A DNA stretch of 64,000 nucleotides from Gemmobacter caeni (GTDB lineage Bacteria > Pseudomonadota > Alphaproteobacteria > Rhodobacterales > Rhodobacteraceae), in contig NZ_QBKP01000012.1 of the NCBI RefSeq assembly GCF_003054195.1, positions 1 to 64,000 of the forward strand, given 5' to 3'. Below are positions 4,369-55,759 of the stretch, piece by piece (within the stretch, counting starts at the first letter, position 1; each line of letters begins with the position of its first letter). The translations under genes were made by a program, and so were the position numbers. The notes beneath the pieces were generated by a model. It did no database searches. It was not told where the DNA came from and was given only the letters and a program-made list of their open reading frames with translations.

Positions 4369-5592
4369 ATGACCCGGACATTCCTTGCCCGCAACCCCTC
4401 GACCCTGTGGTTCCTGCTGGTGCTGGCGCTGTTCACCCTTTGCGTCACCGTTCTGGCCGAGGGCTTTGGCATCGGCCTCATCCCCACCGCCTTCGTCAAG
4501 GTGCTGGGCAAGACCTTATGTCTCTGCCTCGTCGCCCTGGCGATGGATCTGATCTGGGGATACACCGGCATCCTTTCGCTGGGCCACATGGCCTTCTTCG
4601 CCCTTGGCGGCTACATGACCGGCATGTGGCTGATGTATGCCCGCACCGAGGAGATCGTGGTGCAGGCGCTGGCCGGATCGCCCATCCCGCCCACGCCCGA
4701 AGAGGTGGCGCAGGGCGTTGCGACACAGATATTCGGTGTGGTCGGCGGATCTGACCTGCCTGTTGTCTGGACCTTTGCGCACAGCGCCTTCCTGCAACTG
4801 CCGCTGGTGCTGATCGTGCCGGGCGTTCTGGCGCTGGTCTTCGGCTGGCTGGCGTTCCGGGCGCGGGTGAACGGGGTGTACCTGTCGATCCTGACACAGG
4901 CCATGACGCTGGCGCTGACGCTTTACCTGTTCCAGAACGACAGCGGGCTGCGCGGCAATAACGGGCTTTCAGGGCTGCAAAATCTGCCTGGCCTCGCCGA
5001 TGTGCCACAATCCACGTTGTCGATCCTGTTCTTCCTCGCCTCGGCCCTGTTGCTGGCGGCAGGGTATCTGTTGCTGGCCTGGGTCACCTCGGGCAAGTTC
5101 GGCAGTGCCCTGCGCGCGATCCGCGACGATGAACAGCGGCTGCGTTTCCTTGGCTACCCGGTCGAGGGTTACAAGCTGTTTGTCTTTACCCTGACCGCCA
5201 TGGTCGCCGCCGTGGCGGGTGCTTTCTATTACCCGCAGGCGGGCATTATCAACCCGGCCGAGCTTGCGCCAATCGCCTCGATCTACCTCGCCGTCTGGGT
5301 CGCCATTGGCGGGCGCGGACGGCTTTATGGGGCGGTGATCGGGGCGGCCTTCGTCTCGTTGTTGTCCTCGTGGTTCACCGGGGGCATGGCGCCCGCCATT
5401 CCGCTCGGGTTCTACACAATCAAATGGGTGGACTGGTGGACGGTGCTTCTCGGCCTCGCCTTCGTGCTGGTGACGCTGTTCGCGCCACGCGGGATCGGCG
5501 GGCTGTTCGACCGGCTGCCCAGCCCGCGCCGCCATGGCGCCCAGCTTGGCCCCGATGACGGCGCGCTGCGCGAGAAGGAGGCCGACGCATGA
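4369..5592 (+). CDS. urtC: Urea ABC transporter permease UrtC
   Basis: A 407-residue LivM-type permease with about ten hydrophobic segments. The conserved block VALAMDLIWGYTGILSLGHMAFFALGGYM lies near residues 50-85. RAIRDDEQRLRFLGYPVEGYKLFVF is the cytoplasmic loop that contacts the ATPases. A GGRGRLYGAVIGA block lies near the C-terminus. It forms the membrane channel with UrtB. It ends in an ATGA overlap with urtD, which indicates translational coupling. Confidence 0.95.
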   Translation: MTRTFLARNPSTLWFLLVLALFTLCVTVLAEGFGIGLIPTAFVKVLGKTLCLCLVALAMDLIWGYTGILSLGHMAFFALGGYMTGMWLMYARTEEIVVQALAGSPIPPTPEEVAQGVATQIFGVVGGSDLPVVWTFAHSAFLQLPLVLIVPGVLALVFGWLAFRARVNGVYLSILTQAMTLALTLYLFQNDSGLRGNNGLSGLQNLPGLADVPQSTLSILFFLASALLLAAGYLLLAWVTSGKFGSALRAIRDDEQRLRFLGYPVEGYKLFVFTLTAMVAAVAGAFYYPQAGIINPAELAPIASIYLAVWVAIGGRGRLYGAVIGAAFVSLLSSWFTGGMAPAIPLGFYTIKWVDWWTVLLGLAFVLVTLFAPRGIGGLFDRLPSPRRHGAQLGPDDGALREKEADA

Positions 5593-6353
5593 CCACCATC
5601 GCCCCCGCCCGCACGACCTCGCTGCTGGAGGTTTCCGGCGTCTCGGTCACCTTCGACGGCTTCCGCGCCATCAACAATCTGTCCTTCGCCATCGGCCCGC
5701 AGGAACTGCGCGCAGTGATCGGACCGAATGGCGCGGGCAAGACCACCTTCATGGACATCGTGACCGGCAAAACCCGGCCGGACGAAGGCACGGTTGTCTT
5801 CGGGGAGGTGCCCCGCTCATTGCTGCGGATGTCCGAGGCGCAGATCGCGCGCGCAGGCGTCGGCCGCAAGTTCCAGCGCCCCACGGTGTTCGAGGATCAG
5901 AGCGTTTCCGAAAACCTGATGTTGGCGCTGAAGGCGGCGCGCACGCCCTGGCGGGTGCTGTTCTGGCGCGAAACGGCGAAAGACCGTGTCCGCGTGGCGG
6001 AGCTTGCAGCACAGGTGGGCCTTGCCGATCACCTGTCCCGCAAGGCGGGCGAGCTGTCCCATGGCCAGAAGCAATGGCTGGAAATCGCCATGCTGCTGGC
6101 ACAGGAACCGCGCCTGCTGCTGGTCGATGAACCTGCGGCGGGGATGAGCTTTCTGGAGCGCGAGCAGACCACCGCGCTGCTGGTCGAACTGGCGAAAACC
6201 CGCGCCGTCGTCGTGGTGGAGCATGACATGGAGTTCATCCGGCGGCTGAACTGCAAGGTCACGGTGCTGCACGAAGGCTCGGTTTTGGCCGAGGGCAGCC
6301 TGGATCACGTCACCAAGAATCCGCAAGTCATCGAAGTCTATCTGGGGCGCTGA
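5589..6353 (+). CDS. urtD: Urea ABC transporter ATP-binding protein UrtD
   Basis: A 254-residue ATPase of the LivG type. Walker A is GPNGAGKTTF, the signature is LSHGQKQWLEIAMLL, Walker B is LLLVDEPAAGM and the switch histidine is in VVVEHDMEF. The C-terminus DHVTKNPQVIEVYLGR is typical of LivG/UrtD. The signature has H for the usual second G (LSHGQ), which is normal for this subfamily. The start overlaps the urtC stop by four bases. Confidence 0.95.
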   Translation: MTTIAPARTTSLLEVSGVSVTFDGFRAINNLSFAIGPQELRAVIGPNGAGKTTFMDIVTGKTRPDEGTVVFGEVPRSLLRMSEAQIARAGVGRKFQRPTVFEDQSVSENLMLALKAARTPWRVLFWRETAKDRVRVAELAAQVGLADHLSRKAGELSHGQKQWLEIAMLLAQEPRLLLVDEPAAGMSFLEREQTTALLVELAKTRAVVVVEHDMEFIRRLNCKVTVLHEGSVLAEGSLDHVTKNPQVIEVYLGR

Positions 6354-6355
6354 AC

Positions 6356-7051
6356 ATGCTGACAACCGAAGGGCTGACCCTGCATTACGGCGGCAGCCAG
6401 ATCCTGAACGGCATCGACCTTGAGGCGAAGGCTGGTGTGGTGACCTGCGTCATGGGCACCAATGGCGTAGGCAAGACCTCGCTTCTGAAGGCGCTGGCCG
6501 GAACGCATCCGCGCTCCGGTGGCAGGCTCACGCTGGATGGCGAGGTGCTGCCGGTCCTGCCCGCGCAACATATGGCGCGGCGCGGACTGGCGGTGGTTCC
6601 GCAGGGGCGGATGATCTTTCCGCTGCTGACTGTGCGCGAGAACCTCGAAACCGGCTTTTCGCTGCTGCCGAAGGCCGATCACAAGGTGCCCGACGAAATC
6701 TATGACCTGTTCCCGGTGCTGAAGGATATGGGCCACAGGCGCGGCGGCGATCTGTCGGGCGGGCAGCAGCAACAGCTTGCCATCGCGCGGGCGATGATCA
6801 TGCGTCCCAAGGTGCTGTTGCTGGACGAACCGACCGAGGGCATCCAGCCCAATATCATCCAGCAGATCGGCCGCGTGATCGAATATCTGAAGGCCAAGGG
6901 CAATATGGCCATCATTCTGGTCGAACAGTATTTCGATTTTGCCTTCGATCTGGGCGACCAGTTCTATGTGCTCAAACGCGGCGCGGTGAACCTGTCGCAT
7001 CCGAAAGAGGGCCTGACGCGCGAGGCGCTGCAAGCCGCGCTGAGCATCTGA
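6356..7051 (+). CDS. urtE: Urea ABC transporter ATP-binding protein UrtE
   Basis: A 231-residue ATPase of the LivF type. Walker A is GTNGVGKTS, the signature is LSGGQQQQLAIARAM, Walker B is VLLLDEPTEG, and ILVEQYFDFAF follows. The phrase TEGIQPNIIQQI is characteristic of UrtE. The gene starts 2 bases after the urtD stop and completes the operon. It ends directly against the convergent gene at 7052 with no visible terminator. No urease genes follow here. Confidence 0.95.
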   Translation: MLTTEGLTLHYGGSQILNGIDLEAKAGVVTCVMGTNGVGKTSLLKALAGTHPRSGGRLTLDGEVLPVLPAQHMARRGLAVVPQGRMIFPLLTVRENLETGFSLLPKADHKVPDEIYDLFPVLKDMGHRRGGDLSGGQQQQLAIARAMIMRPKVLLLDEPTEGIQPNIIQQIGRVIEYLKAKGNMAIILVEQYFDFAFDLGDQFYVLKRGAVNLSHPKEGLTREALQAALSI

Positions 7052-7789
7052 TTACGCCCCCAGCGCGTATTGGCGCAGCCGGTCGTAATGTGGCAGCGCG
7101 GCCTCGACCAGCCCCGCATATTCGGGCGCAAGGTCGGGCAGCGGGCCTTCCGGGGCATCAAAGCCGGTGGAGGCATGGACCGCATTATACCAATGCGGCG
7201 CCCATGCCCCGTCAAAGGGCTTCGGCCCCGCAGGCCAGCGCAGCATGCTTTCGGTGAACGGAATGTCCAGGGCCGCACAAAGGACATGCAGGCTGACAGC
7301 CGGGTTGGCGCGGATATCCTCGCTGTCCACCACCACCGGCGCCGCGCCGGTCATGTCAGCCACCTGATCAAACAGTTCCCCTTGCTGGACAAAGCCGATG
7401 TCGGCCAGCGTCGGGCTTTCGCGCTTCCTGGAGTAGCTTGCCACCACCCGCGCCGGATGGCGGATCAGGAACACATTGGTCAGCCCGCGCAGAAAGCCCC
7501 GATCAAAGCCGGGGATCATATGAAGCGTCATATGCTTCTGATACCACAGCGGTTTTCCGTCAGGGTTTGGCCCCGGACAGGCAGCGGCGACCTTTGCCGG
7601 ATCGGCCTCGCCCGCCGCGATCACCTCGGCCGACATCGGATGGTCTATGCCGGTCGCGGCCAGATAGGCGGCATAGAAGGGTTCATCCCACACCGCGCAA
7701 TCACCACGCGCGGCGAAAGCATACATCATGGCGGTCGACAGATTGCGCGGGCCGCTCCACATCGCGATTTTCATGGTGCTGACCGTCAT
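7052..7789 (-). CDS. P-loop sulfotransferase-family protein
   Basis: 245 residues. The N-terminal MWSGPRNLSTAMMYAF is the phosphosulfate-binding loop of the sulfotransferase fold. VFLIRHPARVVASYSRK matches the second conserved element with an Arg and a Ser. The start forms an ATGA overlap with the aminotransferase upstream, so the two are co-translated. A second ATG five codons in (7774) is possible. This pairing occurs in other alphaproteobacteria, but the acceptor is unknown to me. It may act on the product of its neighbour rather than as a classical PAPS sulfotransferase. Confidence 0.75.
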   Translation of the reverse strand: MTVSTMKIAMWSGPRNLSTAMMYAFAARGDCAVWDEPFYAAYLAATGIDHPMSAEVIAAGEADPAKVAAACPGPNPDGKPLWYQKHMTLHMIPGFDRGFLRGLTNVFLIRHPARVVASYSRKRESPTLADIGFVQQGELFDQVADMTGAAPVVVDSEDIRANPAVSLHVLCAALDIPFTESMLRWPAGPKPFDGAWAPHWYNAVHASTGFDAPEGPLPDLAPEYAGLVEAALPHYDRLRQYALGA

Positions 7790-8685
7790 GCCAGCACGAG
7801 TTGCTTGTAAAGGCCGCGCAGGCGTTCCGTCATCGGCCCCATCTGGCCGCTGCCGATCTGCCGCCCATCGATGCTGCCGACCGGGGTTTGCGCGCCGAAA
7901 GTGCCGGTCAGGAAGGCCTCATCCGCCGAATAGGTGTCGACGAGGCTGAAATTCCGCTCGAACACCGGGATGCCATTGGCGCGGCACAGGTCGATCACCT
8001 TGCGGCGGGTGATGCCGTTCATGCAGTAATCGCCGGTCGAGGTCCAAACCTCGCCCTTCTTCACGATGAAGAAGTTGCAGGCATTGGTCGTGTTCACAAA
8101 GCCATGCACGTCCAGCATCAGCGCCTCGTCCGCGCCGGCCTTCTGCGCCGCGATACAGGCAAGAATGCAGTTCAGCTTGGAATGCGAGTTCAGCTTCGGA
8201 TCCTGCGTCATCGGCAGCCCGCGCAGATGCGGCACGGTGGCCAGCGTGATCGGGCGCGGGATTTTGGGGCGCGAGTGCTCCATGATGATGGTGACGGTCG
8301 GCCCCTGCTGCGACAGCTGCGGATGCTGGAAGGGGCGGGTCTTCACCCCGCGCGTCACCATCAGCCGCGCATGAGCGTCGGTGGTCATGCCATTCGCTGC
8401 CTGGGTGTCGCGCAGCGCCTGTTCCAGTTCGGCTGCGGTCATCCTGATATCAAGGTCGATGGCCTTCGCCGCCTCGAACAGCCGGTCAAGGTGCTCGTCC
8501 AGAAAGGCCCAGCGGCCCTCGTAAAGCCGCATCCCTTCCCATACGCCGTCGCCCATCATGAAGCCGGAATCGTACACTGAAACCAGTGCTTCGGCCTTGG
8601 GCACGATCCGGCCATTCAGGAACAGCATCAGGTTTTCGTTGCGGGCGTCCTCTTCCGCCTGGTGGGTGGAAACGTGTTCAGTCAT
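7786..8685 (-). CDS. Class IV PLP aminotransferase (branched-chain/D-amino acid type)
   Basis: A 299-residue fold-type IV PLP enzyme. SVYDSGFMMGDGVWEGMRLYEG near residues 40-65 is the conserved N-terminal block. LNSHSKLNCI should carry the PLP lysine. DEALMLDVHGFVNTTNACNFFIV is the family's phosphate-binding and substrate region. I place the start at 8685, preceded by GGAGGG at ideal distance; frames starting further upstream are unlike the family. The substrate may be a branched-chain or D-amino acid, or aminodeoxychorismate; sequence alone does not decide. Confidence 0.85.
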   Translation of the reverse strand: MTEHVSTHQAEEDARNENLMLFLNGRIVPKAEALVSVYDSGFMMGDGVWEGMRLYEGRWAFLDEHLDRLFEAAKAIDLDIRMTAAELEQALRDTQAANGMTTDAHARLMVTRGVKTRPFQHPQLSQQGPTVTIIMEHSRPKIPRPITLATVPHLRGLPMTQDPKLNSHSKLNCILACIAAQKAGADEALMLDVHGFVNTTNACNFFIVKKGEVWTSTGDYCMNGITRRKVIDLCRANGIPVFERNFSLVDTYSADEAFLTGTFGAQTPVGSIDGRQIGSGQMGPMTERLRGLYKQLVLA

Positions 8686-8787
8686 GGCGCCCTCCTGTTC
8701 GCGGCCCACGCTAGGGCCGCACCGGGCGGGGTTCAAGATGCGACGCTCACGCAGGCTTGTGTTGTGCCGGGATGTGGTTGGGGCGAG

Positions 8788-8808
8788 CCTGTTGCGGGAT
8801 GCAACAGG
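8788..8808 (+). promoter_or_regulatory. Hairpin abutting the msrA ribosome-binding site
   Basis: CCTGTTGC and GCAACAGG form a perfect 8-base stem with loop GGGAT. The 3' arm runs into the msrA Shine-Dalgarno AGGAGGG (from 8806), so pairing would hide its first bases. It could dampen or regulate msrA translation; that role is inferred. Confidence 0.45.
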
Positions 8809-8816
8809 AGGGTGCG

Positions 8817-9458
8817 ATGCGGCGGATCTATGCAATTCTGGTGCTGGCCGTGGCCCTGACCGGTGGTGCGGCGGTTGGAGAGGCTCGCGCGGCGGAGGAA
8901 AAGGCGCTGGTCGCCGGGGGCTGTTTCTGGTGCGTCGAAGCCGATTTCGAAGGCGTCAAAGGCGTGAAATCCGTGGTGTCGGGTTATAGCGGCGGCAAGG
9001 TGCAGAACCCGAGTTACAAGCAGGTCTCTGCCGGGGGTACGGGCCATTACGAGGCGGCCGAGATCACCTTTGACAACAGCGTCATCAGCTATCACGACCT
9101 GATTGCGCTGTTCCTGCGGTCAGTTGATGTCACCGACGCGGGCGGGCAGTTCTGCGACCGGGGCGACAGCTATCGCACAGCGATTTTCGCGCGGGGCGCG
9201 GCGCAGAAGGCGGCGGCGGAGCAGGCGGTGGCCGAGGCTCAGGCCGCGCTTGGGCAGGAGATCGTGACGCCGGTCCTCAAAGCCGGGAAGTTCTGGCCAG
9301 CCGAGGAATATCATCAGGATTACTATCGCTCGTCCGACATCGTGCTGACGCGCGCCGGACCGAAGCAGAAGAAAAATGCCTACAAATTCTATCGCAAGGC
9401 CTGTGGCCGTGATGAGCGGGTGAAGGCGTTGTGGGGCCAGATGGCCTTCCGGCCCTGA
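8817..9458 (+). CDS. msrA: Peptide methionine sulfoxide reductase MsrA, exported
   Basis: 213 residues. After a signal peptide of about 25 residues (MRRIYAILVLAVALTGGAA), the MsrA core starts with GGCFWCVEADFEGVKGV. The catalytic cysteine is about residue 36 and a second Cys follows at 39. YSGGKVQNPSYKQVSAGGTGHYEA and EEYHQDYY are the other family signatures. It reduces methionine-S-sulfoxide in proteins, here presumably in the periplasm. The start at 8817 follows AGGAGGG; an earlier in-frame ATG at 8757 would bury the signal peptide. No MsrB is adjacent. Confidence 0.92.
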   Translation: MRRIYAILVLAVALTGGAAVGEARAAEEKALVAGGCFWCVEADFEGVKGVKSVVSGYSGGKVQNPSYKQVSAGGTGHYEAAEITFDNSVISYHDLIALFLRSVDVTDAGGQFCDRGDSYRTAIFARGAAQKAAAEQAVAEAQAALGQEIVTPVLKAGKFWPAEEYHQDYYRSSDIVLTRAGPKQKKNAYKFYRKACGRDERVKALWGQMAFRP

Positions 9459-9461
9459 GGG

Positions 9462-9773
9462 TCAGACGGTGCGCAGGCCCTGAGTGCCCAGTCGTTGCAC
9501 GTTGTCGCGGGTCCGGTCGCGCACTGGCGCAAGCGCAGCCATGGCCACCTGACCGGCGCCTTGCCCGCCCATCAGCGCCTGCCCGGCGGCGGCCAGCGAT
9601 TGCAGCGCCGCTTCGGCTTTTTCCTGCACCATGCGCACGGGCTCGTCCGAGGTCACATTCCACAGGCCAGCCATTCCCCAAAGCCGCATGGCAACAACCA
9701 TCTGCGCCTCGGCCAGCATGAGGCCGGTTTCCATCGACAGCAGCGTCGCCTCTTCCGGGGTAAAGAACATCAT
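9462..9773 (-). CDS. Small conserved protein, 'antifreeze-like' family of Rhodobacterales
   Basis: 103 residues beginning MMFFTPEEATLLSMETGLMLAEAQMVVAMRLWGMAG. This amphipathic, Met-rich helical N-terminus and a C-terminus rich in Ala, Gln and Arg match a small family often labelled antifreeze protein in Rhodobacteraceae. It looks phasin-like (helical, no signal peptide, no cysteines). The start at 9773 follows GGAGG; the longer frame adds basic residues unlike the family. The function is unknown and the antifreeze label should not be taken literally. It converges with msrA. Confidence 0.65.
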   Translation of the reverse strand: MMFFTPEEATLLSMETGLMLAEAQMVVAMRLWGMAGLWNVTSDEPVRMVQEKAEAALQSLAAAGQALMGGQGAGQVAMAALAPVRDRTRDNVQRLGTQGLRTV

Positions 9774-9870
9774 CGGCCTCCGGTTGCGCGGCTTTCCGCA
9801 AGCCGTCACATCAGAATGACTGCATGCGATCCGGGTGCAAGCATTACGCTAGGTTAATTGCACGAAAGTC

Positions 9871-11823
9871 TTAATCCTGGATACCGCATTTCAGCCCCTC
9901 CAGCACCGCATCCTCGGCGCTGCGCGGGGTCAGCGCGTCACCGATGATCTCGACCCGACCCGGCCAACCGGCGAGCGCCGCGGCCAGATCACGGTTGCTG
10001 TCATGGCCCTGCGCCAGCACCAGCGTGTCCACCGCCTCCGCCACGATGGCATCGCCGCTGGCGGAATGCGTGAAATAAACACTGTCCGAATCCGCTCCGA
10101 ACAGGCGGGCATAGGGCCGGATTTCAACCCCCAGGCGATGCAGACGCGCGGCCATTTCATCGCGCACATAGAAGGGCAGGGTTTCGCCGGGCGCGATGCC
10201 CTCAACAAACAGACGTACCGAACAGCCGTCCCGGGCGAGCTTTTCCGCCAGCCCCATCCCGATCCAGTCGCCGCGCCAGTCCGCGATCACCACGCGGCTG
10301 CCCGGATTGCCCTCGCCACGGAGCACGGCCCAGGCGTCCAGCACATGCGCGCCCTCGGTCTCGATGGCAGGCGCGCGCGGGCGGGCGCCGGTGGCGAGGA
10401 TCACCCGGTCGGGCGCCTCCGCTGCCACCAGTTCTGCCGTGACGGGGGTATTCAGCCGCAGGGTCACACCTGCCTCGCGTACCTCTCGCAGAAGATTGGT
10501 GACAATGCCGCCAAACTCTGCTCGGCCCGGCAGAAGCTGCGCCAGAAGGGCCTGCCCACCCGCCTGCGGCCCGGCCTCGCAGAGTGTGACCGCATGGCCG
10601 CGCGCCGCCAGCACGGCCGCAGCCTTGAGCCCGGCAGGACCGGCGCCTGCGATCAGGATGCGCCGGGGCGTCGCGGTCCGGGTCTTGCGGGGGGCCAGCG
10701 TGGTTTCCCGCCCGCTTTCCGGGAACTGGATACAGGAGATCGGATAGCCCCGGTGGAAATGCCCGATGCAGGCCTGATTGCAGCCGATGCATGCCCGGAT
10801 GCGATCCGGCGCGCCTGCCCGTGCCTTGGCAGGCATCTCCGGGTCGCAGATCATCGCGCGGGTCATGCCGCACAGATCGGCGTGACCTGCGGCAAGGATG
10901 GCCTCGGCCTCCTGCGGCTGGTTGATGCGACCCGTCACGATCACCGGGCGCCCGACGGCTGCCTTCACCTGCGCCGCCAGCGGCGCGGTATAGCCCGCCG
11001 CATAGAACATCGGCGGCACGATGTGGATGGCCCCCGACAGCGAGGCCGAATTGCCCGCCGTAACATGGAAGCAATCGACCAGGCCCGCCGTATCAAGGTG
11101 CCGACAGACCGCGACGGTTTCGGACTGATCAAGCGCCTCGACATCGCGCTCGTCGCCACTCAGCCGCAGGCTGATCGCGAAATCCGGCCCGGTGGCGTGG
11201 CGGATCGCCGCGGCGATCTCGACCAGAAACCGCATCCGGTTCGCCAGCGGACCGCCGTAGTCATCGTCCCGCAGATTGACCGCGGGGTTAAGGAACTGCG
11301 CCGGAAGATACCCGTGCGAGGCGACGATTTCACACCCGTCGAATCCCGCGCGCTGCAATCTTGCCGCGCTGTCGGCATAACCCTGCACGATCTCGGCAAT
11401 CAGGTTGAGGCTCAGGGGGATCGGCATAACCCGAAAGCGCGAATTGGGCACGGCCGAAGGGGCATAGGCGATCGCGGCGGTACCATCATCGGTTTCCATG
11501 ATCTCGCGGCCGGGGTGGAACAACTGCCCGAAAATCCGCGTGCCATGCGCCTGCACCGCCTGCGCCAGCCGGGTATATCCCGGAATCGCGTCATCCGATG
11601 TCGCCATCAGCATATGCGAGGTGTATCGCGCGGTCTCATGCACGCCCGAAACCTGCACCACGATCAACCCCGCCCCGCCTTCGGCCCGCGCCTGATGATA
11701 GGCGATCAGGCGGTCGGTGACATGACCCTCTTCGGCCATCACCGTATCGTGCCCGGTGGAAACGATCCGGTTTGCCAGCTCGATGCTGCCGATGCGAACG
11801 GGGGAGAAGAGTTTGGCGAACAT
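9871..11823 (-). CDS. Old Yellow Enzyme-type flavin oxidoreductase with FAD/NAD(P) domain
   Basis: 650 residues of the 2,4-dienoyl-CoA reductase / trimethylamine dehydrogenase type. Residues 1-340 are an FMN TIM barrel (MFAKLFSPVRIGSIELANRIV; CEIVASHGYLPAQFLNP; NLRDDDYGGPLANR). CIGCNQACIGHFHRGYPISC is the 4Fe-4S cluster motif, followed by an FAD domain (ILIAGAGPAGLKAAAVLAARGH). The start at 11823 has GGAG upstream; an earlier frame to 11892 is not family-like. Relatives demethylate N-methylproline or dimethylamines or reduce enoyl thioesters. The substrate is open. It follows flgI on the same strand after 128 bases. Confidence 0.85.
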   Translation of the reverse strand: MFAKLFSPVRIGSIELANRIVSTGHDTVMAEEGHVTDRLIAYHQARAEGGAGLIVVQVSGVHETARYTSHMLMATSDDAIPGYTRLAQAVQAHGTRIFGQLFHPGREIMETDDGTAAIAYAPSAVPNSRFRVMPIPLSLNLIAEIVQGYADSAARLQRAGFDGCEIVASHGYLPAQFLNPAVNLRDDDYGGPLANRMRFLVEIAAAIRHATGPDFAISLRLSGDERDVEALDQSETVAVCRHLDTAGLVDCFHVTAGNSASLSGAIHIVPPMFYAAGYTAPLAAQVKAAVGRPVIVTGRINQPQEAEAILAAGHADLCGMTRAMICDPEMPAKARAGAPDRIRACIGCNQACIGHFHRGYPISCIQFPESGRETTLAPRKTRTATPRRILIAGAGPAGLKAAAVLAARGHAVTLCEAGPQAGGQALLAQLLPGRAEFGGIVTNLLREVREAGVTLRLNTPVTAELVAAEAPDRVILATGARPRAPAIETEGAHVLDAWAVLRGEGNPGSRVVIADWRGDWIGMGLAEKLARDGCSVRLFVEGIAPGETLPFYVRDEMAARLHRLGVEIRPYARLFGADSDSVYFTHSASGDAIVAEAVDTLVLAQGHDSNRDLAAALAGWPGRVEIIGDALTPRSAEDAVLEGLKCGIQD

Positions 11824-27029: not shown

Positions 27030-28664
27030 ATGCCGGAACCGATCCTCGGGCCCACTGGCCATATCGACACGTTCACACGCGACAACCTGCCGCCCTTCGA
27101 TCTGTGGCCCGAGATCGAGCTCGGTCCCTACCGTTATCCCGACTGGCTGAATGCGGCGGTGGAACTGACCGATGCGATGGTCGCCAAGGGCTTTGGCGAC
27201 AATGTCGCGCTGATCGGCAATGGCCGGATGCGGACCTACAAGGAACTGACGGACTGGACCAACCGCATCGCGCATGCGCTGGTCGAGGATTATGGGGTGA
27301 AGCCGGGCAACCGCGTGCTGATCCGGTCCGCCAACAATCCGGCGATGGTGGCCTGCTGGCTGGCCGCGACCAAGGCGGGGGCGGTTGTGGTGAACACCAT
27401 GCCGATGCTGCGCCATGGCGAGCTGAACCAGATCATCGACAAGGCCGAGATCACCCATGCGCTGTGCGATACCCGGCTGATGGAAGAGCTGGTCGTGGCG
27501 GCCAAGAACAACCGTTTCCTGAAAACGGTGGTGGGCTTTGACGGCACCGCCAACCATGACGCCGAGCTGGACCGGATGGCGCTGTCGAAGCCGGTGAAGT
27601 TTGATGCGGTGAAGACGGGCCGCGACGACGTGGCGCTGCTCGGTTTCACCAGCGGCACCACGGGCGAGCCGAAAGCGACGATGCATTTCCACCGCGACAT
27701 CCTGATCATCGCGGATGCCTATGCGCGCGAAGTGCTGAACGTGCAGCCCGAGGATGTGTTTGTCGGCTCGCCTCCCTTGGCCTTCACCTTCGGTCTGGGT
27801 GGGCTTGCGGTATTTCCGCTGCGCTTTGGCGCTTCGGCCGCACTTCTGGAAAATGCCTCGCCGCCGAACATGATCGAGATCATCCAGAAATACCGGGCGA
27901 CGGTCTGTTTCACTGCGCCGACCGCCTATCGCGTGATGCTGCGCGCGATGGAGGAAGGCGCCGATCTGTCCAGCCTGCGCGCCGCGGTTTCGGCGGGGGA
28001 AACCCTGCCCGGCCCGGTCTATGAAGACTGGATCGCCAAAACCGGCAAGCCGATGCTGGATGGCATCGGCTCGACCGAGATGCTGCATATCTTCATCACC
28101 AACCGTTTCGGCGACAGCTTCCCCGCCTGCACCGGGCGGCCCGTGACCGGCTACAAGGCCATGATCATGGCGCCCGATGGCTCCGAAATGCCGCGTGGCG
28201 AGATGGGGCGTCTTGCGGTGAAAGGCCCGGTCGGCTGCCGCTACATGAGCGCGCCGGACAAGCAGCGCGCCTATGTGAAGAATGGCTGGAACCTGACGGG
28301 CGACAGCTTCTGGCAGGATGAGGCGGGCTATTTCCACTTCGCCGCGCGGACCGACGGCATCATCGTCTCCTCGGGCTACAATATCGCGGGGCCAGAGGTG
28401 GAGGCGGCGCTGCTGGCGCACCCGGATGTGGCCGAATGTGCGGTGATCGGGGCACCGGATGCGGAACGCGGCCAGATCGTCGAGGCGCATGTGGTGCTGG
28501 CGGCGGGCGTGCTGGCCGACCGCGCCACGATCAAGATGTTGCAGGATCATGTGAAAGCGACCATTGCGCCCTTCAAATACCCCCGCTCCATCGTGTTCCG
28601 CGAGGCGCTGCCCAAGACTGAAAGCGGCAAGATCCAGCGCTTCAAGCTGCGCGACGGGATGTAA
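27030..28664 (+). CDS. abmG: 2-aminobenzoate-CoA ligase (benzoate-CoA ligase family)
   Basis: 544 residues of the ANL superfamily. The ATP loop is GFTSGTTGEPKATMHFHRD; DGIGSTEMLHIFITN is the A5 motif shared with benzoate-CoA ligases; TDGIIVSSGYNIAGPEVE contains the hinge; KTESGKIQRFKLR carries the catalytic Lys. It would activate anthranilate with ATP and CoA, supplying the fused AbmA-like enzyme. The family and the neighbouring fusion support 2-aminobenzoate; benzoate, salicylate or 4-hydroxybenzoate remain alternatives. GGGAGA precedes the start. Confidence 0.87.
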   Translation: MPEPILGPTGHIDTFTRDNLPPFDLWPEIELGPYRYPDWLNAAVELTDAMVAKGFGDNVALIGNGRMRTYKELTDWTNRIAHALVEDYGVKPGNRVLIRSANNPAMVACWLAATKAGAVVVNTMPMLRHGELNQIIDKAEITHALCDTRLMEELVVAAKNNRFLKTVVGFDGTANHDAELDRMALSKPVKFDAVKTGRDDVALLGFTSGTTGEPKATMHFHRDILIIADAYAREVLNVQPEDVFVGSPPLAFTFGLGGLAVFPLRFGASAALLENASPPNMIEIIQKYRATVCFTAPTAYRVMLRAMEEGADLSSLRAAVSAGETLPGPVYEDWIAKTGKPMLDGIGSTEMLHIFITNRFGDSFPACTGRPVTGYKAMIMAPDGSEMPRGEMGRLAVKGPVGCRYMSAPDKQRAYVKNGWNLTGDSFWQDEAGYFHFAARTDGIIVSSGYNIAGPEVEAALLAHPDVAECAVIGAPDAERGQIVEAHVVLAAGVLADRATIKMLQDHVKATIAPFKYPRSIVFREALPKTESGKIQRFKLRDGM

Positions 28665-28679
28665 GGCCCGGCGGGGCGG

Positions 28680-29135
28680 TCAGTCGCGGCGCCAGAGCAG
28701 CGCATCCAGCGACCACCGCCCCGGCCCCCGCGCGATCAGCGCAAGGAAACAGGCCGCCCAGGTGCCATGCACCTGCCATGCCTCGGGGTAGACGAAGATC
28801 TGGATGGCTAGCGTCATGCCCAGCAGCGCCAGTGCCGACAGGCGCGTCGCCAGGCCCAGCACCAGCAGGATCGGGAACAGATGTTCCGATACCGTGGCCA
28901 GCACGGCAGCAAGGTCTGACGGGATCAGCGGCAGCGCATATTCATTTTTGAACAGGAACCATGTGCTGTCCCTGATGGTGAACAGCCCCTCGACCTTCGT
29001 CCGGCCCGAGGTAAAGAACACGGCCGCCGGAAAGACGCGCAGCGCAAGCCCTGCGATGTCCCACAGCAGGGGAGCAAAGCGGGCTTCGGCTGTTTCAAGG
29101 CGAGTTTGCAGGCGGGGGGAGAGAAGCGCGGTCAT
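28680..29135 (-). CDS. bufD: DoxX-family membrane protein of the bufferin operon
   Basis: 151 residues with four hydrophobic segments, starting [30 protein letters not shown] (a DoxX signature), then [27 protein letters not shown]. DoxX proteins commonly close bufABCD-type operons, where they may support redox chemistry at the membrane. The start overlaps the bufC stop (ATGA), and the 3' end converges with the CoA-ligase gene. The name follows operon position; the biochemical role is unproven. Confidence 0.8.
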
Positions 29136-29905
29136 GGGGTTTCTCCGAAGGTGATCTGGGTGATGGCGCCGTGGCGGATCAGGCGCATCAGGAACGGGCC
29201 TGCATCGTGGCGGGGCTCGGCTGCGGTTGCGGCCTCGGCTGCGGCGAGCAGCGAATGGCCCGCCATCAAGCTGGCAAGAAAGGCATTGTCGCCGGGAGCA
29301 AGCGTCTCGACCTGCACGGCGTCCTGACGATCCCGCAACACCAGCGCGGCCTCGGTGCGGGCAGCCTCGATCTTGCCGGGCGTAGCGGTGCCGGGCTGGT
29401 TGGCCTGCCAGATGGTGACAAAGGCCCAGGGCGCCACAAGCCGCTGCACTGACGGATGCAGGGGCAGGCGTGCGCGATCCGCCCCGGCAGCCGCAGCCGC
29501 CACAGCCTCGGGCGGGGCAGGTGCTGCATCGGCTGCGTGATAGGCGCGGCCGCGCGCCAGTTCCAGCCGCGCGACATCGGGCAGGTAGGGCAGCCCGGCC
29601 AGCGGCGGAAAGGCTGCGAGGAAATCGGGGAAGGTCTCGCCCCATTGGAACAACACAGGCGAGGGGGGCGGGCTGTCCTTCCAGTAGACTCCGGCCATGG
29701 CGGCGAAGAACTCCGCCCCCACCAGCCGCTCCACAACCGGGAACCGGGCTTTCAGGGCCTCGGTCAGCGAATGCGCCACATTGTTGCGATAGACGGCGAA
29801 ACGGCGCTCCGCCTCATCCGGCGCTGTTGCGGTCACACCAGGGGGCAGGCCCCCCGCTGCGATGGCCTGTCCGAAGGCGGCAATGAACTCAGGATGCGAG
29901 CGCAC
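29132..29905 (-). CDS. bufC: BufC/HvfC-like DUF2063 protein, MNIO partner
   Basis: About 257 residues. The N-terminal [12 protein letters not shown] and [41 protein letters not shown] are the DUF2063 blocks; [10 protein letters not shown]-like [13 protein letters not shown] follows. These proteins are partners of DUF692 enzymes and are thought to bind and present the peptide substrate. I placed the start at the GTG at 29905, overlapping bufB by 17 bases; a TTG at 29923 would add six residues. Neither has a strong Shine-Dalgarno, so translation is probably coupled to bufB. Confidence 0.85.
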
Positions 29906-30746
29906 GGCGGGCCTCTTGCGCAAGGGTCAGGATGACGCTGGCGCGGTCGGCCTCCGCCATCAGCTCGGCAAAGATCGGCACGTCATTGTCCCATTCGATC
30001 AGCGTCGGCAGCGGGCCGCTGCGCATCACGGTTTCGGCAAACAGCGCCCAGACCGGATCGGCGACCGGGCTGCCATGCGCGTCGATCAGCAGCGGACCAG
30101 AGGGCAGTTCCTCCTCGGCATGGCCGCCCAGATGAATCTCGCCCGCCAGATGCAGCGGGAAATCGGCCAGCCAGGCGCGCGGGTCCATCCGGTGATTGGT
30201 GCAGGACACAAAGACGTTGTTCACATCCAGCAACAGGCCGCAGCCGGTGCGGCGCGCGATTTCGGTCAGAAACGCGGTCTCGGGGATTTCCGACTGTTCG
30301 AAGATCACATAGGTCGACGGGTTTTCCAGCAGCATCCGCCGCCCCAGCGCGGTCTGCACTTCGTCGATATGGTCGCAGACAACGTTCAGGGTTTCCGGCG
30401 TATAGGGCAGGGGCAGCAGGTCGTTCAGGTAATCGGTGCCATGGCTGGACCAGGCCAGATGTTCGGAAAAGCTCTCGGGTTGATAGCGATCCACCAGCGC
30501 ACGCAGCCGGGCCAGATGACCGGCGTTCAGCCGCCCGGCGCCGCCGATGGACAGGCCCACCCCATGCAGCGACAGCGCATAATCCTGCCGCAGGGCGGTC
30601 AGCATCCGGTGCGGCGGGCCGCCTGCGCCCATGTAATTCTCGGCATGCACCTCAAAGAACCCCAATGCAGGGCGGGTGTCGCGGATGGCGGGAAAATGTT
30701 CGGGCTTGAAGCCAAGTCCGGCGGCGGCGGGAAGGGCGGGCTGCAT
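29889..30746 (-). CDS. bufB: Multinuclear non-heme iron enzyme (MNIO, DUF692), bufferin maturase
   Basis: 285 residues with a TIM-barrel MNIO pattern. GLGFKPEHF and [11 protein letters not shown] at the start, [11 protein letters not shown] and [11 protein letters not shown] carry metal-binding His and Glu; [26 protein letters not shown] and EIHLGGH supply further His/Asp/Asn ligands. MNIO enzymes oxidise cysteines in precursor peptides; BufB turns bufferin cysteines into thiooxazoles. The start at 30746 has a perfect GAGGAGG. The precursor gene lies directly upstream behind two hairpins. Confidence 0.92.
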
Positions 30747-30768
30747 CTTGTCCTCCTCGGGGCAGGGT

Positions 30769-30793
30769 GGCCGGGGCTGGGGACGCCCCGGCC
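30769..30793 (-). promoter_or_regulatory. Second intercistronic hairpin, bufA-bufB
   Basis: A perfect 9-base stem, GGCCGGGGC with GCCCCGGCC, and a 7-base loop. It ends 22 bases before the bufB start. No T-run follows, so it is more likely a stabiliser or partial attenuator than a full terminator. Confidence 0.55.
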
Positions 30794-30802
30794 GGTCGCT
30801 TT

Positions 30803-30826
30803 GCCGGGGCCATGCGAGGCCCCGGC
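30803..30826 (-). promoter_or_regulatory. First intercistronic hairpin, bufA-bufB
   Basis: A perfect 9-base stem, GCCGGGGCC with GGCCCCGGC, and a 6-base loop, starting 5 bases after the bufA stop. With the next hairpin it would favour a short, abundant bufA message over the maturation genes. Confidence 0.55.
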
Positions 30827-30831
30827 GGCGA

Positions 30832-31107
30832 TCACATCTTGACCGGCTCCAGCGAACCCATGCCATGCGGGGTCTCGATGCTGGCGCAGGTGCCGGCGGG
30901 GACGTATTTCCAGGCGTTGCCCTGATAGTCTTTCGTCGCAGTGCCGGCGCAGGTGGTGCCTGGGCCTGCCGCGCAGTCGTTCTGCCCCGCCATGGCGACG
31001 CCATAGCACTTTTCCATATCGCCCTCGGCCTGCGCCTGTGCGGCGGCCAGCGTCAGCGCGGTGGCCAGCGTGGCGGTCAGCGACAGGGTCTTGGTCATCA
31101 TGGTCAT
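30832..31107 (-). CDS. bufA: Bufferin precursor peptide (DUF2282), copper-related RiPP
   Basis: 91 residues. Residues 1-27 are a Sec signal peptide ([18 protein letters not shown] to AQAQA). The mature part has four cysteines at 34, 45, 53 and 74 in the DUF2282 pattern [33 protein letters not shown]. In bufferins the inner cysteines become thiooxazoles that bind copper and the outer pair can form a disulfide. It stands first in the operon behind a SigF-type promoter. CGGAGGA precedes the start. The chemistry is by analogy with Caulobacter. Confidence 0.9.
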
Positions 31108-31162
31108 CGGGTCATCCTCCGTTGGATCTGAAGCAAGGGCGCGTCCGGCCCTCGCAGTGCAT

Positions 31163-31188
31163 TTCGCCGGACGGGCCGGGGGCGTTAC
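31163..31188 (-). promoter_or_regulatory. SigF-type ECF promoter of the buf operon
   Basis: On the minus strand GTAACG (31183-31188), a 16-base spacer and CGAA (31163-31166) match the Caulobacter SigF pattern GTAACC-N16-CGAA with one mismatch. It lies 56 bases before the bufA start and faces the gene for a SigF-like sigma factor. Confidence 0.65.
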
Positions 31189-31244
31189 TGGCATCACGCT
31201 TATGTGTTCACCCGTGATCCATTGCAGAAATGTCGTGAGCGGCT

Positions 31245-31269
31245 GTAACAAGGTCAGGCTGACGGCGTA
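31245..31269 (+). promoter_or_regulatory. Possible autoregulatory SigF-like promoter
   Basis: GTAACA (31245-31250), a 15-base spacer and CGTA (31266-31269) resemble the bufA promoter, but the spacer is one base short and the -10 has one mismatch. It would start transcription at about 31276, which fits only if sigF starts at the ATG at 31282. Confidence 0.3.
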
Positions 31270-31281
31270 ATGCAGGACAGT

Positions 31282-31854
31282 ATGAGAGACAGCGAAAGCG
31301 AATGGTCGGTGCTGATGCGGGCTGCGATCGGCGGTGACGGGCGTGCCTATGCACGCCTGCTGACGGAGATCACGCCGGTGCTGCGCGGGATCGTGCGGTC
31401 GCGCGGGCGGACGCTGCCGCCGGACCGGCACGAGGACATCGTGCAGGATGTGCTGCTGGCGATTCACGAGAAGCGGCACACCTGGCGTCCCGACAGTCCG
31501 CTGAAGCCGTGGCTCTATGCCGTGACGCGGCACAAGGTGGTGGATGCCTTTCGTCGCCGGGGCGCATCGGTGCATCTGCCCATCGAGGATTTCACCGAAT
31601 TCCTCGAAAGCGAGCCTGGCCCCGACCCGCTGGCGCGGCGCGATACCGACCGGCTGCTGGCCGGGATCGACGACCGTTCCGCTGCAATCGTGCGGGCGGT
31701 GGCGATTGAAGGCGAGGAAACCGGCGCCGTGGGCGCGCGGCTGTCGATGACCGAGGGTGCGGTGCGCGTGGCGCTGCACCGGGCGATGAAGAAATTGGCC
31801 CGTCTGGGCGCCGGGAGCGGCGGCGATGGACCGGGCCGGGGACGTGACGAATGA
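31282..31854 (+). CDS. sigF: ECF RNA polymerase sigma factor, SigF-like
   Basis: About 190 residues. Region 2 spans [22 protein letters not shown] and [43 protein letters not shown]. Region 4 spans [44 protein letters not shown]. This is the sigma group paired with DUF1109 anti-sigma factors. An ATG at 31270 would add four residues, but 31282 has AGGA just upstream and suits the possible promoter. The stop overlaps the anti-sigma start (ATGA). It very probably drives the divergent buf operon, for example under metal stress. Confidence 0.9.
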
Positions 31855-32486
31855 GAACCGAAGATCTCATTTCCCGACTGGTGGCGGAGCCGCCACGCCC
31901 GCCGCTTCGCGCGGCGGCGATGGCGCTGGCCATGCTGGTCGCACTGGCGCTGCCGCTGGGGTGGTTTCTGGGCAGCATGGGGATGCGGCCGGATCTGGAG
32001 GCGGCGCTGCTCGCGCCGGTGACGGCGGCGAAGTCGCTGCTTCCCTTCGTGCTGGGCGCCACGAGTGTCGCGCTGGCGCTGCATCTCGCGCGGCCCGAGG
32101 CACGGGTGGGGCGTCGGCTGGTTCCGGCTGCGCTGGTCGGGCTGGCGGCGCTGGGGCTGTGGCTGGGCTTCTGGGTGCAGACGCCAACGCAGGCGCTGGG
32201 TGCGGCAATCCGTGGCTCTACCCAGGTGAAATGCCTGACGACCATTACCCTGATGTCCCTGCCGCCCCTGGCGGTAGGGCTGCTGATGCTGCGGCGCGGG
32301 GCGAGTTCTGCGCCCGCGCTGTCAGGGGCTGTGCTGGGGCTTGCCTGCGGTGGAATGGCGGCGGCTGGCTATGCGCTGCACTGCACCGAGGATAATCCGC
32401 TGTTCTACGTCACATGGTATGGCGCCGCGATTCTTGCCGCAGGTGGCATCGGCGCGCTTCTGGGGTGGCGTTTGCTGCGCTGGTAA
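31851..32486 (+). CDS. nrsF: Anti-sigma factor NrsF (DUF1109)
   Basis: 211 residues with about six membrane helices (for example [67 protein letters not shown]). The N-terminus [13 protein letters not shown] is short and cytosolic and probably binds the sigma factor. Two cysteines, in STQVKCLTT and ALHCTEDN, lie at positions typical of the family and may sense metal or redox state. Overlap with sigF indicates stoichiometric synthesis. Confidence 0.9.
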
Positions 32487-32549
32487 GGCTTGCCGCTTCG
32501 GGCGTTATCGTTTTAACCTTGAAGCATCAGCGACAGCGGAGATTTGGCG

Positions 32550-33938
32550 ATGCAGGATATCGTGACGGGGCTGGAGGAACTTCTGGGCCCCGACGTGGTC
32601 ACCCGTGCGGGTGATGTGCCCGAGGCCTATCGCCATGACTGGTCTGGCCTGACCCCGGTGGAGCCGCTGGCGCTGTTGCGGCCCCGCGATACGGCGGGGG
32701 TGTCAGCGGCGCTGCGGTTCTGCAACGAACATGGCGTGGGCGTCGTGCCGCAGGGCGGGCGCAGCGGCATTTCCGGTGGCGCCATGCCGGTGGCGGGGGC
32801 GGTTGTGCTGTCGCTCGACCGGCTGAATCAGATCGAGGAGGTCGATCCGCAGATGGCCACACTGACCTGTGGCGCGGGTGTGGTGCTGGAAAAGGCGCAG
32901 CAGGCAGCGGCGGAGGCAGGGCTGATGCTGGCCGTCGATCTGGGCGCGCGGGGGTCGTGCACCGTGGGCGGCGTTATCTCCACCAATGCGGGCGGCAATC
33001 AGGTGATCCGCTACGGCATGGCGCGCGAGCATGTGCTGGGGCTGGAGGTCGTTCTGGCCGATGGCACGGTGATCACCGCGCTGAACAAGATGCTTAAGAA
33101 CAACGCCGGGCTGGACCTGAAACAGATGTTCATTGGCACCGAGGGGCTGTTGGGCGTGGTCACCCGCGCCGTGATGCGTTTGCAACCGCGCCCGCCCCAT
33201 ACCGCTACCGCCTTCCTTGGCCTTGCCGATACGGCGGCGGTGATCGACATGCTGGCCCGCGCCCGCGCGGCACTTGGCCCGCAACTCACCTCGTTCGAGG
33301 TGATGTGGCCGAGCTTCTTTCACCATATGTCCGAAGGCACCGGCATCGGCAGCCCGCTGACCGGGCGCCATGGCGTCTATGTGGTGATCGAGGCCAGCGG
33401 CTTTGCCGAAGGCGGCGCCCGTGCCGCGCTGGAAACCTACCTTGAGGCCGCGCTGGATGCGGGCATGGTCGAGGATGCGGTGATCGCCGCCAACAGCCGC
33501 GAGGAACGCAGGCTCTGGGCCGTGCGCGAAAGCGTGGCCGAATTTGCCCGCGTGGTCGGCCCGATCATCGCCTTTGATGTCGGCCTGCCGCTGATGCGCA
33601 TGGACGAGGCCGTGCGGCGCTGCGAAAGCGGCATTGCCGAACGCTGGCCCGGTGCGCTGGCGCTCAGCTATGGCCATATCGGTGACAGCAACCTGCATCT
33701 TGTGGTCTCGGTCCCTTCGGCTGGCAAGAACCAGCCGGAGTCCGAGGTCAAGAAGCTGGTCTACGGCATCGTGCGCGAGATGGCGGGCACGATTTCCGCC
33801 GAACATGGCATCGGCCTGATCAAGCGCGATTACCTTGCCTACAGCCGCAGCCCCGAGGAAATCGCCACCATGCGGGCGGTCAAAGCCGCGCTGGATCCGA
33901 AGGGGATTCTCAATCCGGGCAAGGTGCTTTCGCCCTGA
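32550..33938 (+). CDS. FAD-linked oxidase/dehydrogenase (GlcD/D-2-hydroxyacid type)
   Basis: 462 residues of the VAO/PCMH flavoprotein family. GVGVVPQGGRSGISGGAMPV and GSCTVGGVISTNAGGNQVIRYGMAREHVLGLEVVLADG are the FAD-binding blocks. The C-terminal YGHIGDSNLHLV and SAEHGIGLIKRDYL carry metal/substrate histidines, as in D-lactate and D-2-hydroxyglutarate dehydrogenases. It oxidises a 2-hydroxyacid; which one is open. The start at 32550 has GCGGAG upstream. A terminator follows, so it is probably its own unit 63 bases after nrsF. Confidence 0.88.
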   Translation: MQDIVTGLEELLGPDVVTRAGDVPEAYRHDWSGLTPVEPLALLRPRDTAGVSAALRFCNEHGVGVVPQGGRSGISGGAMPVAGAVVLSLDRLNQIEEVDPQMATLTCGAGVVLEKAQQAAAEAGLMLAVDLGARGSCTVGGVISTNAGGNQVIRYGMAREHVLGLEVVLADGTVITALNKMLKNNAGLDLKQMFIGTEGLLGVVTRAVMRLQPRPPHTATAFLGLADTAAVIDMLARARAALGPQLTSFEVMWPSFFHHMSEGTGIGSPLTGRHGVYVVIEASGFAEGGARAALETYLEAALDAGMVEDAVIAANSREERRLWAVRESVAEFARVVGPIIAFDVGLPLMRMDEAVRRCESGIAERWPGALALSYGHIGDSNLHLVVSVPSAGKNQPESEVKKLVYGIVREMAGTISAEHGIGLIKRDYLAYSRSPEEIATMRAVKAALDPKGILNPGKVLSP

Positions 33939-53740: not shown

Positions 53741-55759
53741 ATGCCGATGGACAACGCCATCGCGGCCAAGGCCGCGCTTGACCCGCAGAACTTCGCTCTT
53801 GCCAACTGCCTGCGCGCGCTGGCCATCGACGCGGTGGAGGCGGCGAAATCCGGCCACCCCGGCGCGCCGATGGGGATGGCGGATGCGGCCGCAGTGCTGT
53901 TTCGCAAGCATCTGAAATTTGATGCGAAGAATCCCGCATGGCCGGATCGTGATCGTTTCGTGCTGTCGAACGGCCATGCTTCGATGCTGCTTTACGGGCT
54001 GCTGCATCTGACGGGCTACGAGGACATGACGCTGGATCAGATCCGCAACTTCCGGCAGTGGGGCGCGATCACGGCGGGCCACCCGGAATATGGCCATGCG
54101 CAGGGGATCGAGGTCACGACCGGGCCGCTGGGGCAGGGCATTGCCACCGCTGTCGGCATGGCGCTGGCAGAACGCAGGCTGGCGGCCGAGTTCGGCGCCG
54201 ATCTGGTGGATCACCATACCTATGTGTTTCTGGGCGACGGCTGCCTGCAAGAAGGGATCGGGCAAGAGGCGATCAGCCTTGCCGGGCATTTGGGACTGGG
54301 CAAGCTGATCGTGCTTTACGATGACAATGCCATCACCATTGACGGGCCGACCTCGGTCAGCTTCTCCGAGGATGTGCCGGCGCGGCTGCGCGCCTGCGGC
54401 TGGCATGTGCAAAGCTGCGATGGCCATGACGGGCAGGCTCTGGATGCGGCCATCGCGGCGGCCAAGGCGGAAACCGCGAAGCCCTCGCTGATCGCTATGA
54501 AAACCGTGATCGGCTTCGGTTCGCCCGGCAAGGCAGGCACCTATGCGGTGCATGGCTCTCCGCTTGGTGCGGCTGAGGCCGAAGCGACCAAGGCGGCACT
54601 TGGCTGGACCGCCGCGCCGTTTGAAATTCCCGCCGAATTGGGCGCCGAATGGCGGGCCATCGGGGTGCGCGGGGCTGCGGATCGTTCGGCATGGGAATCC
54701 CGCCTTGCCGCCCGCCCCGAGGCGGAACGGGCCGAGTTTCTGCGCCGCCTGTCGGGCGATCTTCCCCCGGCATATGATGCCGCCGTGGCCGAGGCGCGCG
54801 CGGCGCTGTTCGCCCAGCCGAAGAAGGCCGCCACCCGCAAGGCCAGCCAGATGGCGCTGGAGGCGCTGACCCCGGCGCTGCCCGAAATGATCGGTGGTTC
54901 GGCTGACCTTACCGGCTCGAACCTCACGCGCGTTCCGGCGGTGGACAGCCAGTATACGCGCGAGGCGCCGGGTCGTTACATCGGCTATGGCGTGCGCGAA
55001 TTCGGTATGGCGGCCGCGATGAACGGCCTCGCCCTGCATGGCGGGTTCATTCCTTATGGCGGCACGTTCCTTGTGTTTTCCGACTATTGCCGCAATGCGA
55101 TCCGGTTGTCGGCGCTGATGGGTCTGGGCGTCGTCTATGTGATGACGCATGACAGCATCGGTTTGGGCGAGGACGGCCCGACCCACCAGCCCATCGAACA
55201 CATGGCCTCGTTGCGCGCTATTCCGGGGCTGACGGTGTTCCGCCCCGCCGATGTGGTGGAAACGCTGGAAGCCTGGGATATCGCCATTCGCAACCGCCAT
55301 GTGCCCTCGCTGATGGCGCTGTCGCGTCAGGACGTGCCGCAACTGCGTCTGGAGGCGGGAGCCGAAAACCTGACCGCGAAGGGCGCCTATGTGATCCGCC
55401 AGTTCGGCGAAGGGCGGGATGTGACGCTGATCGCGACGGGCACCGAGGTTGCGCTGGCCGTCGAAGCCGCCGGGGCGCTGCATGGCGAAGGCATAGCGGT
55501 TGTCGTGGTCTCCATGCCCTCGTGGGAGCTGTTCGAGGCTCAGCCCGCCGAATATCGCGCCGAGGTTCTGGGCAATGCCCCCCGCATCGCGGTTGAGGCT
55601 GCGGGCAAGTTCGGCTGGATCCGTTATGTCGCCACCGAGGATGACGTGATCGGTATGCCGGGCTTCGGCGCCTCCGCCCCGGCAGAGCGGCTGTATCAGG
55701 AGTTCGGGATCACCAAAGAGGCGATCATGGCGCGGGCAAAACTTTTGGCGCGGGGTTAA
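53741..55759 (+). CDS. tkt: Transketolase
   Basis: 672 residues. [28 protein letters not shown], the thiamine diphosphate motif [14 protein letters not shown] with [56 protein letters not shown] and the C-terminal [17 protein letters not shown] are typical. The start at 53741 follows AGGAGGA. It transfers two-carbon units between ketoses and aldoses, with erythrose 4-phosphate as a key acceptor, which explains its place here. It ends overlapping the convergent eryD by 4 bases. Confidence 0.95.

Follow-up and report, generated by a model that had tools for sequence, protein, structure and literature searches.

The first 64,000 nucleotides of contig NZ_QBKP01000012.1 of Gemmobacter caeni (Rhodobacteraceae), hereafter the window, contain a six-gene cassette at 28680-32486, in which a bufferin operon (bufA-bufB-bufC-doxX, minus strand) diverges from the genes of a sigma factor and a membrane anti-sigma (sigF-nrsF, plus strand). 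The published sigma-F motif is present in the promoters of both units and is conserved in most relatives with the same divergent layout. Gene content, gene order, cysteine conservation and the promoter motifs with their conservation are direct observations. We hold with considerable confidence that the locus is a Buf1 bufferin operon under sigma-F control, working by the mechanism outlined below. A sequence-only reading of this DNA implied that a sigma-linked buf cassette was new. This does not hold, as Caulobacter has the same genes under sigF dependence, and sigma and NrsF genes are listed in Buf1 clusters (PMC3511200, PMC8224329, PMC12452194). The cassette is thus an ordinary member of a known system, whose gene set and order were already known from Caulobacter; new here are the conservation of the promoter motif, the link to msrPQ and a comparison suggesting two regimes of buf control in the family, which is the part that matters more.

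Predicted sigma-F-type promoters at the bufferin cassette

The predicted promoter upstream of bufA, GTAACG-N16-CGAA, has one mismatch to the motif published for Caulobacter, GTAACC-N16-CGAA (PMC3511200). The sites upstream of sigF (GTAACA-N15-CGTA) and of msrP (GTAACT-N16-CGTA) depart from it slightly as well, and all three agree, with these small departures, with the promoter of ECF16 (extracytoplasmic function group 16) SigF factors. We searched for the motif in 47 divergent sigF/bufA relatives, 11 from the family and 36 from named genomes (two collections, in which the same species may be present twice). It is present on the sigF side in 45, on the bufA side in 35 and on both sides in 33, while first-order Markov resampling of the same loci (200 rounds) gave maxima of 2, 1 and 0, respectively, and the reversed pattern occurs in two of the loci. 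With a looser pattern, the bufA promoter motif is found in all 14 other SigF-linked loci of the family, in one of the four SigF-positive genomes with an unlinked bufA and, as a single weak match, in the 36 SigF-minus loci. With sigma-F-type promoters pointing towards both operons from the space between them, and with their conservation in relatives, these sequences support a regulatory link from the sigma/anti-sigma pair to the buf operon. No sigma-70-like promoter was found in 28400-32800.

Among 150 genomes of the family, NrsF has a match in 24, of which 23 are above cut-off, and DUF2282, the family of BufA, has one in 110. Nineteen of the 23 genomes also have bufA and, judging by table coordinates, the two genes are neighbours in 15 of these 19, so the sigF-nrsF/buf neighbourhood is far from chance. 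Thirteen of the 15 neighbouring pairs are divergent, one is convergent (G071, L044) and one is co-directional (G023, L040); in the latter variant, bufA-bufB-bufC-doxX-sigF-nrsF lie on one strand. The neighbourhood extends to named genomes: in the best 80 of 552 BufB relatives, SigF and NrsF are both found within the fetched flank (at most 5 kb) in 39, which belong to Rhodobacterales, Hyphomicrobiales and Acetobacterales, with one Sphingomonadales record.

Cassette genes and the proposed mechanism

Open reading frames, Pfam and NCBIfam models place the six genes where the sequence-only reading had put them, with every Pfam family above cut-off and BufB also recognized by the NCBIfam MNIO_BufB model (Table 1). 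These are the only DUF2282 gene and the only gene of a multinuclear non-heme iron-dependent oxidative enzyme (MNIO) in the whole genome.

Table 1. Genes and predicted promoters of the cassette (window coordinates; model scores in bits).
Feature	Position	Strand	Description
doxX	28680..29135	-	Membrane protein of the DoxX family, encoded at the end of the buf operon; Pfam DoxX 58.7 (cut-off 23.6)
bufC	29132..29923	-	DUF2063 partner protein of the MNIO enzyme; Pfam DUF2063 86.3 (cut-off 27.2)
bufB	29889..30746	-	MNIO bufferin maturase; Pfam MbnB_TglH_ChrH/MNIO 344.1 (cut-off 25); NCBIfam MNIO_BufB 380 (cut-off 310)
bufA	30832..31107	-	Buf1-type DUF2282 precursor, 91 aa; Pfam DUF2282 93.1 (cut-off 22.4)
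bufA promoter	31163..31188	-	Predicted sigma-F promoter, GTAACG-N16-CGAA, 55 nt upstream of the bufA ATG
sigF-nrsF promoter	31244..31269	+	Predicted sigma-F promoter, TGTAACA-N15-CGTA, directly upstream of sigF
sigF	31270..31854	+	ECF sigma factor; Pfam Sigma70_r2 40.1 (cut-off 24), Sigma70_r4 25.0; NCBIfam NF009165 211 (cut-off 198)
nrsF	31851..32486	+	Membrane anti-sigma, NrsF/DUF1109 family; Pfam NrsF PF06532 150 (cut-off 26.8)

The operon has the features of the Buf1 class: a DUF2282 precursor with four conserved cysteines, a BufB-type MNIO, and DUF2063 and DoxX genes. The cysteines of BufA are at positions 34, 45, 53 and 74, in columns kept in 55, 54, 54 and 55 of the 55 sequences compared, which come from 54 family loci and the window; Cys45 and Cys53, singled out in the sequence-only reading, are indeed the two central ones. 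The N terminus of BufA reads like a signal peptide. The Buf2 class is excluded by score (NCBIfam BufA2, 20.7 bits for a cut-off of 60), and its precursor has six cysteines, not four. Models of the HvfABC oxazolin/EGKCG class are likewise all below cut-off in NCBIfam (HvfB 228.7/360, HvfC 47.4/142 and HvfX 55.5/80 bits). Sequence searches of the PDB returned MNIO relatives for BufB and no credible match for BufA, BufC or NrsF; across 54 BufB sequences, many His, Glu, Asp and Asn positions common to PDB 3bww are invariant or nearly so. Two DUF2282 genes lie close together on one strand in two other genomes (G007:C18 and G091:C45).

NrsF has the hydropathy profile of a multi-pass membrane protein. 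Its Cys128 is conserved in 19 of 19 sequences and its Cys178 in 18 of 19, and the two are 50 residues apart, as are Cys131 and Cys181 of Caulobacter NrsF.

The gene is directly downstream of sigF, with an overlap of four bases. For sigF itself, the start given in the sequence-only reading (ATG 31270) belongs to the right gene, but the second ATG at 31282 (190 aa) is the likelier start because the sigma-F-type promoter abuts the first one; SigF is 177-192 aa long in 16 of 20 relatives, a weak support given that their starts were picked by script. The start of bufC is uncertain, and may be TTG 29923, with which the gene overlaps both doxX and bufB, or a GTG slightly further in. The cassette is flanked by genes for a benzoate-CoA-ligase-like protein and an FAD-linked oxidase (Pfam, NCBIfam), with no evident link to metals, and a search of all 64,000 nt of the window detected no Rfam family or tRNA.

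In the mechanism we propose, NrsF would keep SigF inactive at the membrane until metal stress in the envelope, with an excess of copper as the likeliest cause, disturbs it via its two conserved cysteines. Freed SigF would then fire the back-to-back promoters of bufA-bufB-bufC-doxX and sigF-nrsF, as well as at least one distant promoter upstream of msrPQ, whose products would repair oxidised periplasmic methionines. BufB and BufC would modify Cys45 and Cys53 of BufA, probably to thiooxazoles, and BufA, exported by Sec, would buffer periplasmic copper. The metal signal, promoter use, cysteine modification and copper binding are modelled here on homologues. Thiooxazole chemistry is described for a Caulobacter bufferin (PMC13097082; table in PMC12452194), with a mass shift of about -4 Da per modified cysteine in the fontiphorin work (PMC13097082), and bufferins are listed as copper buffers (PMC12452194, table); by analogy, this BufA may bind copper and carry thiooxazoles on its central cysteines.

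The predicted distant promoter is located on a separate contig (G000:C1:556693-556719; L050, L117), where it ends 29 nt upstream of the msrP ATG; msrQ overlaps msrP downstream. It is one of seven strict motif matches in this genome. In the family, the motif is present upstream of msrP in four of 18 SigF-positive genomes vs none of 26 SigF-minus genomes (one-sided Fisher test, 0.023). The latter come from a set of 30 of the 91 genomes that have bufA but lack an above-cut-off NrsF; 27 of the 30 had MsrP above cut-off and 26 were usable. One locus (L173), whose upstream region is cut by a contig end, was left out of the msrP comparison. We conclude that msrPQ is likely a SigF target, but not a universal one. 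As the promoter type of the cassette recurs upstream of msrPQ, on another contig, and msrPQ also belongs to the SigF regulon of Caulobacter (PMC8224329), the cassette is probably not self-contained. Thus, in the sequence-only reading's proposal of a self-contained metal-response cassette, the link between sigma factor and peptide genes stands, supported by conserved promoters in both directions, while the self-containment probably does not. A further site, TGTAAC-N16-CGTA at 54955-54980 of the window (minus strand), lies inside long open frames and was set aside as probably due to chance.

Several observations weigh against this mechanism. The bufA-side motif is absent from 12 of the 47 divergent relatives (with the stricter pattern) and from the region upstream of bufA in three of the four SigF-positive genomes with an unlinked bufA, and no motif precedes msrP in 14 of 18 SigF-positive relatives. 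In the genome of the window, the motif is not enriched: the strict form has seven matches vs 22 for the reversed pattern, and the loose form GTAAC-N16/17-CGWA has 33 vs 124. Only the sites upstream of bufA, sigF and msrP were retained from this search. NrsF reaches 87.2 bits with the NCBIfam equivalog model, for a cut-off of 300; it is a member of the family by Pfam but not an equivalog by the NCBI threshold. Finally, the Caulobacter regulon was studied with chromate and cadmium, and sigF answers chromium and cadmium there (PMC3511200), while the related ECF16/DUF1109 pair of Brucella melitensis answers hypochlorous acid (PMC8315932). Copper is therefore not the only possible signal.

The latter results form the basis of a serious rival reading, in which the sensing side would be a switch for envelope oxidants, with the NrsF cysteines as the target of hypochlorous acid, thiol oxidants, chromate or cadmium; copper would be only one of several triggers, and the buf operon would be part of a general response to thiol and methionine damage. 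The occurrence of msrPQ with the same promoter in this genome fits such a switch, as do the chromium and cadmium response just mentioned and the presence of MsrP/MsrQ homologues among the genes induced by hypochlorous acid in Brucella (PMC8315932). However, the Caulobacter SigF regulon is among the few sets of genes induced by copper in all conditions (in either medium and either cell type), and a sigF mutation causes sensitivity to copper, whereas the mutant's sensitivity to chromate and cadmium is described as similar to that of its parent (PMC8224329). The description of bufferins as copper buffers also argues against it. We regard the oxidant switch as the less likely account of the sensing side, and copper, by analogy with Caulobacter, as the likeliest inducing signal of the SigF-controlled cassette.

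Two probable regimes of buf control in the family

Most bufA genomes of the family (91 of 110) have no NrsF above cut-off. We analyzed 36 of these 91 loci, mostly those with better DUF2282 scores and not a random draw; one of them (G116, L187) matches NrsF weakly, below the cut-off. A 34-bp element is located about 100 bp upstream of bufA in 31 of the 36 (within L177-L216, e.g. L207, L213 and L215). It reads T-N-ACG-N4-CGTGA-N2-CACG-N4-CGTGA and consists of two tandem palindromes (xCACG-N4-CGTGA twice). The weight matrix for the element was trained on the same 36 loci, among which these 31 score at least 22 while the maximum in mononucleotide shuffles is 4.9; the opposite strand scores up to 25.5, as expected for a near-palindrome, and is unusable as a control. 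Two checks lie outside the training set. First, the 16 SigF-positive loci scored, window included, all score 2.4 or less. Second, the strict form occurs 22 times in the 150 genomes (in 22 genomes, 10 of them outside the 36 training loci), every time upstream of bufA, while the reversed strict pattern has no match among the matches listed. One of the loci lacking the element is L189, where two bufA genes lie in tandem and the second was used here, which may explain the lack.

Most of these loci also share a genomic neighbour. For 31 of the 36, the sequence fetched around buf includes thrS, together with the element in 29; one of the 14 SigF-linked loci has thrS there too, and the window does not. 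Three forms of the CGTGA element were searched for upstream of msrP and found in none of 26 SigF-minus and none of 18 SigF-positive genomes. When up to three mismatches are allowed, the 22 strict-form genomes contain 188 matches vs 80 for the reversed control, although up to 44 of the 188 are accounted for by the bufA sites, which are counted once per strand. Because this relaxed form outnumbers its control, further targets may exist; a few similar non-bufA sequences recur in two genomes among the matches listed, for example in G101/G080, G003/G090 and G039/G115.

In a BufB tree, the SigF-linked lineage is apart from the rest, with three label changes vs 12.6 in shuffles. It was built by a quick procedure, with 24 of the 50 inner branches left open, and omits one locus (L032 in G133) whose BufB match at 4697-5531, in SigF-forward orientation, is split into two overlapping pieces by a frameshift or a sequencing error. 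Two loci appear intermediate. In the first one (L033 in G009, 5807-10322), nrsF-sigF is located between thrS and bufA with sigma-F-type promoters both ways, and BufB falls in the thrS-type lineage, which suggests that one regulator has replaced another at the thrS site. In the second one (L180, G122:C7), the buf operon is linked to thrS but preceded by a sigma-F-type promoter, and SigF/NrsF is encoded on another contig (C1), which suggests SigF control in trans. Three loci run counter to a tidy two-regime story: in L199 (G139), NrsF is encoded elsewhere and the tandem palindrome (27.4 bits) is retained, whereas L197 and L198 have neither element, and BufB of L198 is inside the SigF-linked lineage.

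Overall, it is probable that two alternative regimes control buf in the family. A minority of genomes, including that of the window, would use SigF/NrsF with divergent promoters, with msrPQ co-opted in some genomes; in the majority, near thrS, a putative regulator would act via the tandem palindromes, which in their strict form occur nowhere but upstream of bufA in the 150 genomes. Switches from the second regime to the first would have occurred once through sigF-nrsF landing between thrS and bufA, in L033, and once through the gain of a sigma-F promoter served in trans, in L180. The predominance of bufA genomes without NrsF means that buf can be controlled without it, and could also suggest that SigF/NrsF mainly controls itself and other genes while the neighbouring buf operon obeys a separate, unseen control; this is very improbable, given that the bufA motif tracks SigF linkage (14 of 14 other linked loci vs one weak match in 36 SigF-minus loci) and that the tandem palindrome is absent from all 16 SigF-positive loci scored, although the SigF-positive L199, with its unlinked bufA, keeps it. 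If two regimes do exist, the same copper-peptide operon is wired to two unrelated switches in one bacterial family, and the intermediates make both the second regulator and the reason for switching directly testable.

Comparison with known systems

A limited literature search, with the original bufferin paper outside its reach, did not find the thrS-linked element in print. The Buf1 clusters of an MNIO survey (PMC12452194) have the same core of precursor, MNIO, DUF2063 and DoxX, and sigma and NrsF genes are reported among them; no mention of the thrS-linked class or its element was seen in the part of the survey available. The Brucella pair has an anti-sigma of the same family, also with two conserved cysteines 50 residues apart, but differs by its hypochlorous acid signal and by the absence of copper and DUF2282 from its main text (PMC8315932).

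Among the best 80 of 552 BufB relatives, the closest named one is Gemmobacter lutimaris YJ-T1-11 (L239), with a BufB 97% identical. It has the same six genes in the same order, with 94% DNA identity over 10.9 kb including flanks and no gene-content difference seen, and is thus a near-copy of the window locus.

The best-studied counterpart is that of Caulobacter crescentus, in which the CC3254-CC3257 operon is sigF-dependent, NrsF is the negative regulator and its two cysteines matter (PMC3511200). There, sigF-nrsF adjoins a DUF2282-DUF692-hypothetical-DoxX operon, bufferin 1 (PMC3511200, PMC8224329), and gene numbers and operon orders indicate that the two would be divergent. The promoter type, the 50-residue spacing of the NrsF cysteines and the place of msrPQ in the regulon are shared with the window. 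Caulobacter differs by having another SigF-controlled cluster, which brings its DUF692 genes to two, unlike the single MNIO and DUF2282 genes of the window's genome, in which, moreover, the spacer of the sigF promoter is one base shorter than in the published motif. The cassette thereby adds a Gemmobacter-like genome to those with this known copper-defence system, and three of its promoters are predicted to the base.

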